Source: Planctomycetaceae bacterium
GTDB taxonomy: Bacteria; Planctomycetota; Planctomycetia; Planctomycetales; Planctomycetaceae
Reading direction: 5' to 3'
Assembly: GCA_020426325.1 (NCBI GenBank)
Contig: JAGQQG010000015.1
Coordinates: forward strand, 1 to 64,000
DNA length: 64,000 nt
How positions within the stretch are numbered: position 1 is the stretch's first letter; each line of letters opens with the position of its first letter. The translations under genes and the position numbers were made by a program. Shown piece by piece: positions 42,203 to 61,000 of this stretch. The notes beneath the pieces were generated by a model. The model was not told the DNA's origin. It saw only the letters and a list, made by a program, of their open reading frames with translations, and did no database searches.

Positions 42203-42433
42203 ATGAAATTCGTCGTCTGGGGACTCGTGCTCCTGCTGGTAGTGATTCACCAGGACCTCTGGAATTGGGACAACGACCGTCTCGTTCTGGGATTTCTTCC
42301 TGTCACTCTGGCCTTTCATGCCTGCATCTCCCTCGGAGCCGGCCTCGCCTGGTTCCTCGCAATCAACTTTGCCTGGCCGGAAGGACTTGACGATGACGCC
42401 GATGCTGCATCTCACAAAGGAGGTGCAGCATGA
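42203..42433 (+). CDS. DUF3311-family small membrane protein (symporter partner)
   Basis: 76 residues, two membrane helices: MKFVVWGLVLLLVVIHQDLW and GFLPVTLAFHACISLGAGLAW, with NWDNDRLVLG between them. This is the DUF3311 pattern, usually found directly before a sodium/solute symporter gene and presumed to help it. Its TGA overlaps the symporter ATG by 4 bases (ATGA), so translation is coupled. Confidence 0.88.
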   Translation: MKFVVWGLVLLLVVIHQDLWNWDNDRLVLGFLPVTLAFHACISLGAGLAWFLAINFAWPEGLDDDADAASHKGGAA

Positions 42434-44127
42434 GTCCAGGCATGATCAAAGTCGTCATCATCGGATGCTATTTGGCGTCGCTGCTCTTTCTAGGGGTCTT
42501 CTCTTCCCGACTGTTCAAGGGCACGAGTAAGGACTACCTGCTGGCCAGTCATTCGATTGGCCCATTTCTCCTGTTAATGTCGTTGTTTGGCACAACGATG
42601 ACCGGTTTTGCTCTTGTCGGCTCGACGGGTGAAGCATTCGTCGAGGGTGTGGGCGTGTATGGCATGCTTGCCTCTTCGAGCGGAATCATTCACTCGCTCT
42701 GCTTCTTTGTGCTGGGAATCCGACTGTATTCCTGGGGCAAGAAGTATGGTTACACCACTCAGGTCGGATTCTTCCGAGATCGCCTGGCCAGTGACAAGAT
42801 TGGACTCGTGCTGTTCCCGATTCTCGTTGGTTTAGTGGTGCCGTACCTGCTCGTCGGAGTCATCTCAGCAGGCAAGTCGATCGAGGGTGCGACGCGAGGT
42901 GATTTCCCCGGGCTGTCGGAGAACGGCGGCATTCCCCCCTGGCTGACGGAACTGGTGATCTGTCTGGTGGTGCTGGTCTATGTGTTCTTTGGCGGGATGA
43001 GAGGCACCGCATGGGCCAACACGTTCCAAACGCTGGTGTTCATGATCCTGGGAGTCGTGACGTTCTACATCATCGCGACCAGTCTGGCGGAGAATGCCGT
43101 AGCTGAGGGACGTGTGCAAATGGAGAACGGCGAAGTGCGGACCGAACCGCCGAGTGGATTCATGGATTCTCTCCACATTGTCAGCCGTGAGATTCCAAAG
43201 GCGAGACGGGTCCGGGCAGAAGTGACAGAGGCTGATCAGATCGAGACGGTGGAGGCTCCTCCGCAATTCCGGACACGGCATCGCCTCGACCCGTGGATGT
43301 TCTTTACCTACATGCTGATCCCCTTCTCGGTCGGCATGTTTCCCCACCTGTTTCAGCACTGGTTGACAGCTCGCAGTGCCTCTTCCTTCAAACTGGCGGT
43401 CGTGTGTCATCCAATCTTCATCATGATCGTGTGGGTGCCTTGCATCCTGATCGGCGTTTGGGCCACAACGGGACTGCTGACACTGCCGCCACCGTTTCTT
43501 GCCAATCAGAGCGAGAATGCAAACAAGGTGCTCGGCTTCATGGTCAAAGCCCTGTCGGGTGATGTGCTCGGCGGGTTTCTGCTCGCGGGCATCCTCGCAG
43601 CCATTATGTCGAGCCTCGACAGCCAGTTCTTGTGCATCGGCACGATGTTCACCAAGGACATCGTGGTGCACTATGGTGGAGAGGACCGATTCACTGACAA
43701 GCAGGTGATTCTCATTTCACGCTGTTTCATCATCGCGGTGGTGGTAGCAACATACGCATTGAGTCTGACGGAGATTGCCCAAACTCGAGTTTTCCAATTG
43801 GGTATCTGGTGCTTCAGCGGCTTCTCCAGTCTGTTTCCGTTAGCGTTCCTGGCGGTGTACTGGCGTGGACTGACGAAGTGGGGAGCTTACGCTGGCGTGC
43901 TGACAGCGGCCGGACTTTGGGTCTACCTCTTCCGGATGTCGAACTTCGGTGAACGCGAAAACTGGTCGCTCGACTTCACACTTGGTGATCAGACAATTCA
44001 CACCATGCCTGTGGCAGCCATGTTTCTTGCCTCACTCGTGGTCACAGTGGTCGTGTCGCTCACCACCCCTAAACCAGATGCCGAGACCCTGGACAAGTTC
44101 TTCCCGAAAAAGACCCACGGGGCGTAG
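42430..44127 (+). CDS. Sodium:solute symporter family transporter
   Basis: A polytopic LeuT-fold SSS transporter of 565 residues. Segments such as FKGTSKDYLLASHSIGPFLL, FGTTMTGFALVGSTGEAFVE and GILAAIMSSLDSQFLCIGTM (the Na2-site region with SSLDSQ) are characteristic. It imports an organic solute with Na+; substrate unknown. A loop of about 60 residues (residues 220-280) is longer and more charged than usual. The last codons and TAG lie inside a REP palindrome (44112-44139), giving the C-terminal residues THGA. Confidence 0.92.
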   Translation: MSPGMIKVVIIGCYLASLLFLGVFSSRLFKGTSKDYLLASHSIGPFLLLMSLFGTTMTGFALVGSTGEAFVEGVGVYGMLASSSGIIHSLCFFVLGIRLYSWGKKYGYTTQVGFFRDRLASDKIGLVLFPILVGLVVPYLLVGVISAGKSIEGATRGDFPGLSENGGIPPWLTELVICLVVLVYVFFGGMRGTAWANTFQTLVFMILGVVTFYIIATSLAENAVAEGRVQMENGEVRTEPPSGFMDSLHIVSREIPKARRVRAEVTEADQIETVEAPPQFRTRHRLDPWMFFTYMLIPFSVGMFPHLFQHWLTARSASSFKLAVVCHPIFIMIVWVPCILIGVWATTGLLTLPPPFLANQSENANKVLGFMVKALSGDVLGGFLLAGILAAIMSSLDSQFLCIGTMFTKDIVVHYGGEDRFTDKQVILISRCFIIAVVVATYALSLTEIAQTRVFQLGIWCFSGFSSLFPLAFLAVYWRGLTKWGAYAGVLTAAGLWVYLFRMSNFGERENWSLDFTLGDQTIHTMPVAAMFLASLVVTVVVSLTTPKPDAETLDKFFPKKTHGA

Positions 44128-44179
44128 CCCGTGGGCTTTCGAGACGTGATCAAAGCCCACGGGCTACGCCCCGTGGGTC
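44112..44179. repeat. Perfect 28-bp inverted pair of REP palindromes
   Basis: Arm 1 (44112-44139, GACCCACGGGGCGTAGCCCG plus TGGGCTTT) and arm 2 (44152-44179) are exact reverse complements with a 12-nt spacer. Each arm is itself a hairpin (CCCACGGG ... CCCGTGGG). It contains the symporter stop codon and ends 19 bp before the transposase ATG. Confidence 0.95.
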
Positions 44180-44198
44180 AATCGATGGAGTCAGCGCC

Positions 44199-44750
44199 AT
44201 GTCTCCACCAAACACACCCACCAGCTGGCGATGGTTTCATGTCATCCTCGGCACTTACGGCTCGTGGCTTCCCGGTGATCCCCGCGGGTTTCGAACTCGG
44301 CATCACCGAGATCATGTCGATGGCGACTACAAGAACCCGCCACCGACCGGTCTCTATGACGGACTCAACGGAGCAAGTCATTCCAGTTTGAAGTCATCTC
44401 CTGTCGTTCTCACTTGGGACCAGCGTGTGATCGTCGGCAATGCGCTCCGATGTCGGCTTGAAGAACTCAAATCGACCGTCGCCTGCTTAGCGATCAGTCG
44501 ACAACATGCTCATCTACTTGCCAAACTTCCACCGCAACAGGTCAGAGACACCGTCGGAAATGCGAAGAAGACGGCATGGTTCAAAATGCGCGAAGCGGGA
44601 TTCCCGCAGAAGCTTTGGGCCAAGCGAGCAAAATGTGATCCCATGAATGACCGCCGTCATCAACTCAACGTCTATCACTACATCCTGCGCCACGAGCGGG
44701 AGGGTGCATATGTGTGGAGGTATGTGGATGTGTACGGTGATCGGGCCTGA
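44199..44750 (+). CDS. REP-associated tyrosine transposase (RAYT, IS200-like Y1)
   Basis: 183 residues. It starts with the aromatic strand pattern SWRWFHVILGTYGSWLPGD; the HUH metal motif is in LAISRQHAHLLAKL (HAH at residues about 103-105). The helix with the catalytic tyrosine is VYHYILRHEREGAYVW. RAYTs are thought to cut and move REP palindromes as single-stranded DNA. The gene is bracketed by matching palindromes: an inverted pair upstream and a single copy that overlaps its own TGA. All conserved parts look intact, so it may be active. Confidence 0.88.
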   Translation: MSPPNTPTSWRWFHVILGTYGSWLPGDPRGFRTRHHRDHVDGDYKNPPPTGLYDGLNGASHSSLKSSPVVLTWDQRVIVGNALRCRLEELKSTVACLAISRQHAHLLAKLPPQQVRDTVGNAKKTAWFKMREAGFPQKLWAKRAKCDPMNDRRHQLNVYHYILRHEREGAYVWRYVDVYGDRA

Positions 44751-44776
44751 CCCACGGGGCATAGCCCGTGGGCTTT
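44749..44776 (+). repeat. REP palindrome, downstream copy
   Basis: 28 bp, direct copy of the left arm of 44112-44139 with one change (GGCGTAG to GGCATAG). It overlaps the last two bases of the transposase stop codon and ends 7 bp before the haemoglobin gene's stop. Confidence 0.95.
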
Positions 44777-44783
44777 AGGGAGT

Positions 44784-60661: not shown

Positions 60662-61000
60662 GCGAGCTTTCTGTCGAGGTCGTTCGTGCTATAGAGGCCT
60701 GTGACGTATGAGGTTATTCTGAGGTCACATCCTGCGGGATGCAATCTCGCCAGTGATAACAAGTGAGTACGATCCAGTGTTTCACAGTCGGGTAGCACCG
60801 GTTGTCCCAACCGGTGCCGCGCCAGGGGACAGAAGCATTTGCAAGAGCGACCAGTACCCTGACATCGTACGTCTTCTGGAATGCTTCTCGTTGCTTCGCA
60901 ACACGGGTTGACACAACCCGTGCTACCCGGTGCGATCGATGGCCAAATACAGATCATCACCAGGATTAGCGACCGTTCGCAGAACGGCGCGGTCATGGTC
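60662..61000. other. Gap with hairpin repeats
   Basis: About 340 bp between the propeller gene start and the ABC permease gene end (both leftward). It holds the REP-like pair at 60790-60928. The small frames over it (up to 125 codons) run through the palindromes and are not believable genes. Confidence 0.5.
60790..60928. repeat. Pair of facing REP-like hairpins
   Basis: Left hairpin GCACCGGTT-GTCCC-AACCGGTGC (60795-60817) preceded by GGGTA; right hairpin CACGGGTT-GACAC-AACCCGTG (60902-60922) followed by CTACCC. The two blocks are inverted relative to each other (60790-60816 against 60902-60928), about 85 nt apart. The stem bases differ in a matched way between the two hairpins (CCGG/CCGG against CGGG/CCCG). 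Confidence 0.75.

Follow-up and report, generated by a model that had tools for sequence, protein, structure and literature searches.

A probable REPtron-like locus in a planctomycete, with the stop codon of a symporter gene inside one of its palindromes

Introduction

When a transposase gene is flanked by palindromes, and one of these contains the stop codon of the gene in front of it, has the element landed there recently or has it long held its place? Here, we address this question for a locus in a 64,000-nt stretch of DNA (the window; positions 1-64,000 of contig JAGQQG010000015.1, assembly GCA_020426325.1, Planctomycetaceae bacterium, labelled G000), which an earlier note, made from the sequence alone, had read as a complete and recently inserted RAYT/REP unit. 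Genomes of the same genus used for comparison were G001, G002 (Planctomycetaceae bacterium OFTM354 in the GTDB record), G003 (incomplete) and G004.

The co-evolution of RAYTs with REPs, and the occurrence of REPs at rayt stop codons, are established (PMC2817692). Class 2 TnpAREP proteins combine a Y---NP motif with a GT[AG]G foot, and the rare TnpAY1 class 3, found in Planctomycetes, Acidobacteria and Proteobacteria, has Y----Q with a CnGA foot and is REPtron-like (PMC6006769). TIRYTs and TIRtrons, together with many tyrosine transposases and flanking repeats in Rhodopirellula baltica, are described in the portion of PMC3733652 considered here.

Results

Three palindromes were confirmed to frame the transposase gene (Table 1), as the earlier note had reported: the arms of REP1 and REP2 (28 nt each) are 100% complementary with a spacing of 12 nt, and REP3 departs from REP1 at one of the 28 positions, where a loop G is replaced by A. 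The window holds no further copies of the three REP 23-mers (shuffled-sequence expectation 0.01). Folded as a single strand, each REP has a stem of 8 bp and a loop of 6 nt, and REP1 and REP2 together form one 28-bp stem; single-stranded DNA folding of positions 44105-44185 (81 nt) gave -41.8 kcal/mol (z -14.9), with no shuffle equally good. An Rfam search returned no family. The description of the unit as complete stands for the core of REP2, RAYT and REP3, and does not extend to the right-hand fourth REP of G002 or to the small ORF of G001 and G002, both of which are absent from G000, where 8 nt separate the end of REP3 from the globin stop codon. Elsewhere in the window, a lone palindrome at 60902-60922, CACGGGTTGACACAACCCGTG, may be a decayed REP with a TTGCAA-type loop.

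Table 1. Features of the locus, in window coordinates
Feature	Position	Strand	Details
Sodium:solute symporter (PF00474)	42430..44127	+	C-terminus and stop supplied by REP1
REP1	44112..44139	+	GACCCACGGGGCGTAGCCCGTGGGCTTT; stem 8, loop GCGTAG; position common to G001 and G002
REP1-REP2 inverted pair	44112..44179	.	Potential single hairpin, 28-bp stem, 12-nt loop
REP2	44152..44179	-	Exact reverse complement of REP1; AAGCC tag at 44153-44157
Core unit REP2-RAYT-REP3	44152..44776	.	AAGCC ends outside; outer polarity as in several dispersed G002 REP pairs
HUH/Y1 transposase (RAYT-like), 183 aa	44199..44750	+	TYGxWLPGDPRG signature, H103-A-H105, Y161-x-x-x-H165; TGA 44748-44750
REP3	44749..44776	+	Direct copy of REP1, one loop change; shares two bases with transposase TGA
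Collapsed right junction	44777..44783	.	G001 and G002 have a small ORF here; G002 also a fourth REP

The encoded protein belongs to the HUH/Y1 superfamily (PF01797), with the HuH motif, the catalytic tyrosine and the Y1 fold all present. By itself it scores below the curated cut-offs of PF01797 (Y1_Tnp), NCBIfam REP_Tyr_transpos (NF047646) and IS200; among 55 relatives, 31 match Pfam Y1_Tnp and 34 match REP_Tyr_transpos at E 0.01 or better. When the PDB was compared with a profile built from the 55 relatives, the matches (E 1e-5 to 2e-4) included IS608, ISDra2, further IS200 transposases and TnpAREP 4er8, and in these alignments the HxH and tyrosine line up with the IS200/IS605 active sites. 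The AlphaFold2 model (pLDDT 88.6) was matched by Foldseek to 2vjv, 2xma and 4er8 with probability 1.00, at a TMq to single PDB chains of only 0.4-0.5. The RAYT reading depended on the catalytic tyrosine, which is retained as Y161; like H103 and H105, it is invariant in 27 relatives and in 55 relatives. Between G000 and G002, a dN of 0.144 against a saturated dS of ~1.5 (dN/dS ~0.1) points to strong purifying selection on the transposase, and with its catalytic residues retained it can reasonably be read as a probably working enzyme, as had been proposed.

The final part of the symporter is made from the palindrome. Its C-terminus reads ...FFPKKTHGA-TAG, and the REP1 codons ACC CAC GGG GCG TAG provide the last four residues and the stop (TAG at 44125-44127), so that T-H-G-A-TAG lies wholly within REP1. 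A host stop inside the palindrome, another claim of the earlier note, was thus borne out and is common to G000, G001 and G002: the G002 symporter ends in EKTHGT-TAG, with its stop within the same palindrome, and that of G001 in NAPHAA-TAA, formed by a single decayed palindrome at the same stop. The symporter lacks such a palindrome in G004 and in seven relatives at greater distance, and there it ends at or a few residues past FFPxx. An exact empty site was not found, since the G004 gene ends normally (FFPNE-stop) and the DNA downstream is non-syntenic. An old palindrome insertion at the symporter end would have replaced the original stop by THGA-TAG, a tail that the transporter presumably tolerates. 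REP1 was also considered as a transcription terminator and rejected, as there is no T tract on the symporter strand. In G004 (L063/L077), the same symporter is followed, ~23 nt beyond its stop, by a symmetrical REP, AAGCCCACGGGTTGCAACCCGTGGGCTT, so that REPs may have come to this gene end more than once. The G002 transposase, like the symporter, also ends within a REP (...GESHGA-TAG; L032 1474-2040).

The age of the insertion can be judged from G002, where a transposase with 77% amino acid identity stands behind the same symporter with two REPs on each side. Across the symporter and rpoB, G000 and G002 share ~79-82% nucleotide identity, which falls to ~50% at third positions. Because the orthologous locus is present in G002 despite saturated third positions, the insertion predates the species split unless both species gained the locus through later exchange, and by this comparison the locus is old and conserved, not a recent jump. 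The earlier note's recent insertion, in which a self-moving RAYT transposon entered the symporter end, would account for palindromes that are near-identical to each other and for the host stop within one of them. It is nevertheless highly improbable, and is contradicted by the transposase, REPs and stop shared with G002, by the single decayed palindrome that G001 has at this stop, and by the presence of one RAYT copy of this type per genome.

An old insertion could have been built in more than one order. No close transposase was found in G001, and its state could reflect either loss of the RAYT, leaving one hybrid palindrome, or a solo-REP stage before the transposase arrived. That a solo REP came first to the symporter stop, and that REP2-RAYT-REP3 landed beside it in an ancestor of G000 and G002, is a possibility we hold only tentatively; it agrees with the single REP at the G001 stop, with the rpoB tree, which weakly pairs G000 with G002 (87), and with the polarity of the core unit, which is that of dispersed REP pairs. 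The symporter tree, however, pairs G000 with G001 (bootstrap 93 and 99), which favours loss in G001, and the G001 palindrome is REP1-like on the left and has GGGTCA on the right, as at the outer end of a REP pair, a hybrid that a deletion between outer REPs would leave. Support in a four-gene concatenate tree is 57-62, and the gene trees conflict on the order of events.

A genome search for the palindrome recovered further copies, as the RAYT/REP reading had predicted: G000 has 19 exact CCCACGGG-N6-CCCGTGGG palindromes and ~30 places that match the 20-nt core of the REP with at most 3 mismatches, and the control, the palindrome pattern read backwards, gave 0 matches in the same genome. Palindrome counts were 12 in G001, 80 in G002, 4 in the incomplete G003 and 39 in G004, where most copies have different loops (commonest TTGCAA). 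Several REPs occupy orthologous places in G000, G001 and G002, even beside diverged intergenic flanks, which argues that many REPs are old. They also persist in G001 and G004, genomes where no close RAYT was found, so that retention of REPs does not need the RAYT. Most REPs sit in short intergenic gaps and some lie in frame within genes; relative to transcription, 33 have the same and 18 the opposite orientation, a weak bias that is partly cancelled by REP pairs. In the dispersed G002 REP pairs examined, the AAGCC ends are mostly outside, and by this shared polarity REP2-RAYT-REP3 may be the autonomous form of such pairs.

Several copies inside genes were observed. The carB linker of G002 (C17:43858-43929; L099) contains an in-frame REP pair belonging to the family seen in the window (...EKTHGALPVGL...), which carB lacks in G000 and G001. 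An ileS-like gene (name inferred from the translation) has three REP families at a single coding site in three species: a CCCACGGG REP pair in G002 (L097 2971-3037), a GCGGGGGACGTCAGTCCCC palindrome in G000 (L235 ~2261) and a third, AAGTCCAGGGGTTGCAACCCCTGGG, in G004 (L236). The considered portion of PMC3733652 mentions a comparable case in Xanthomonas recB. Another REP, apparently within a coding gene (L024 position 1500), is kept in G000, G001 and G002 (L111 and L101 orthologous).

A scan of GTDB genomes yielded 80 relatives, nearly all from Planctomycetota. Matched palindromes flank the gene on both sides in 42 of the 80, compared with 0-2 when partners were swapped between loci. The flanking palindromes vary among loci yet match within each locus, the pattern that co-evolution of protein and REP would produce. 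In a 94-sequence tree, 57 of 58 Y---H members cluster together (support 0.93), and 8 Q-motif members branch within this cluster; the clade is mainly planctomycete, and 57 of its 65 members have Y-x-x-x-H. Among Y---H loci with matched palindromes, AAGCC stands at the hairpin edge in 21 of 33 (shuffles 1.7) and is missing from 12, an exploratory count in that the tag was chosen after viewing the same data, and therefore one that needs independent confirmation. Y---Q loci have AAGCC in 0 of 8 and CGAG or CGGAG in 7 of 8 (shuffles 3.1).

Discussion

Among the papers compared, the closest described group is TnpAY1 class 3 (PMC6006769), with which the locus shares the HuH-Y core, mostly planctomycete hosts, a REPtron-like arrangement, atypical flanking hairpins present in several copies and, apparently, extended N-terminal conservation. 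Its signatures differ: in place of Y----Q, the window protein has Y161-x-x-x-H165, with H at Y+4 and E at Y+5, and in place of a CnGA foot there is an AAGCC edge. The bases before the 8-bp stem are AAGA in REP1, TTGA in REP2 (reverse strand) and CTGA in REP3; CnGA fits REP3 alone and is thus not a conserved foot. The Q-motif planctomycete relatives share the TYGxWLPGDxRG N-terminus with the window protein and, with CGAG or CGGAG edges and no AAGCC, look like class 3.

The E. coli class 2 TnpAREP (4er8; PMC2817692) is likewise a single-copy gene with HUH and one tyrosine, inverted cognate REPs, REP pairs, dispersed REPs and a REP at the transposase stop, the place of REP3 here. Unlike class 2, the locus has no GT[AG]G foot (at the feet, one strand reads ..GA and the other AAAG/AAGC) and has Y161-ILR-H165-E in place of Y---NP, with the H kept throughout the clade; the protein matches NF047646 and PF01797 only below threshold. 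TIRtrons and TIRYTs, as presented in the same portion of PMC3733652, are similar in that a RAYT-like gene is framed by self-complementary repeats without GTAG. IS200/IS605 TnpA (IS608, ISDra2) has the same fold, HUH-Y site and subterminal hairpins, whereas the window locus has a 183-aa protein with an N-terminal extension, in single copy at an old fixed site, and no tnpB among the neighbouring ORFs. An IS200/IS605 insertion sequence, multicopy and moving as a unit, was rejected, there being one copy in the genome. By its sequence features the locus appears to work like a REPtron, and strict membership of class 2 or class 3 fails on the signatures above; it belongs to a known enzyme family, in a planctomycete branch of which little has been described.

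We consider it very probable that the locus is REPtron-like: a single chromosomal HUH endonuclease/transposase gene of the RAYT/IS200 superfamily, with cognate REP hairpins and a modest number of dispersed REPs. The gene is framed by two inverted cognate REPs that are also present elsewhere in the genome, and it is single-copy and mostly vertically inherited (one close copy per genome; orthologous locus in G002). The identification as a RAYT/REP unit is upheld by the conserved HUH and tyrosine residues, the fold, the dispersed REP copies and the cognate palindromes of relatives. The protein would bind REP hairpins in single-stranded DNA, probably with the AAGCC edge as guide, and would use Y161 to nick beside the hairpin, H103 and H105 holding a metal. 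REPs and REP pairs would be copied or moved in trans, and the RAYT gene itself stays in place, retained by selection.

A different reading is unlikely, though worth weighing: the palindromes would be retained chiefly for a role in RNA or transcription at the ends of genes, and the RAYT would be an enzyme domesticated by the host and no longer moving them. Such a role would fit the conservation of REPs at orthologous sites beside diverging flanks, the strong purifying selection on the RAYT and the majority of copies in short intergenic gaps. Many copies, however, differ in place between species, as does copy number (19, 12 and 80), some lie in frame inside genes, the orientation bias is weak, and the symporter strand at REP1 lacks a T-rich terminator. 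The locus provides a relative date and a natural history for a REPtron: the same site and stop are found at saturated distance in one sister species and with one palindrome in another.

We give about even odds to a broader proposal, that Y-x-x-x-H proteins with AAGCC-edged hairpins form a separate, largely planctomycete REP/RAYT lineage, apart from GTAG/Y---NP and CnGA/Y----Q, with host gene ends and protein linkers as recurrent landing sites that are occupied by different REP families in sister species. What is new is modest, namely the pairing of Y---H with AAGCC and a borrowed stop codon whose history can be followed across three species; the transposase clade itself may already be drawn in PMC3733652. 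The occurrence of Y---H/AAGCC loci beside Q-motif relatives makes it possible to test directly whether residue Y+4 and the guide at the hairpin foot co-evolve.

Two further elements were noted. A second REP family, GGCGAGCGGGGGACGTNAGTCCCCTG, has 40 copies in G000 (e.g. L241, L244, L253, L265), 8 in G001, 16 in G002 and 0 in G004, with no cognate transposase among 30 loci examined. G000 also carries a second, distant HUH/Y1 gene (C70:8484-8879; L031), which has a Y---NP-like motif and is framed by a different palindrome, CCGTTTAGCCACACATTTGAAATGTGTGGCTAAACGG.
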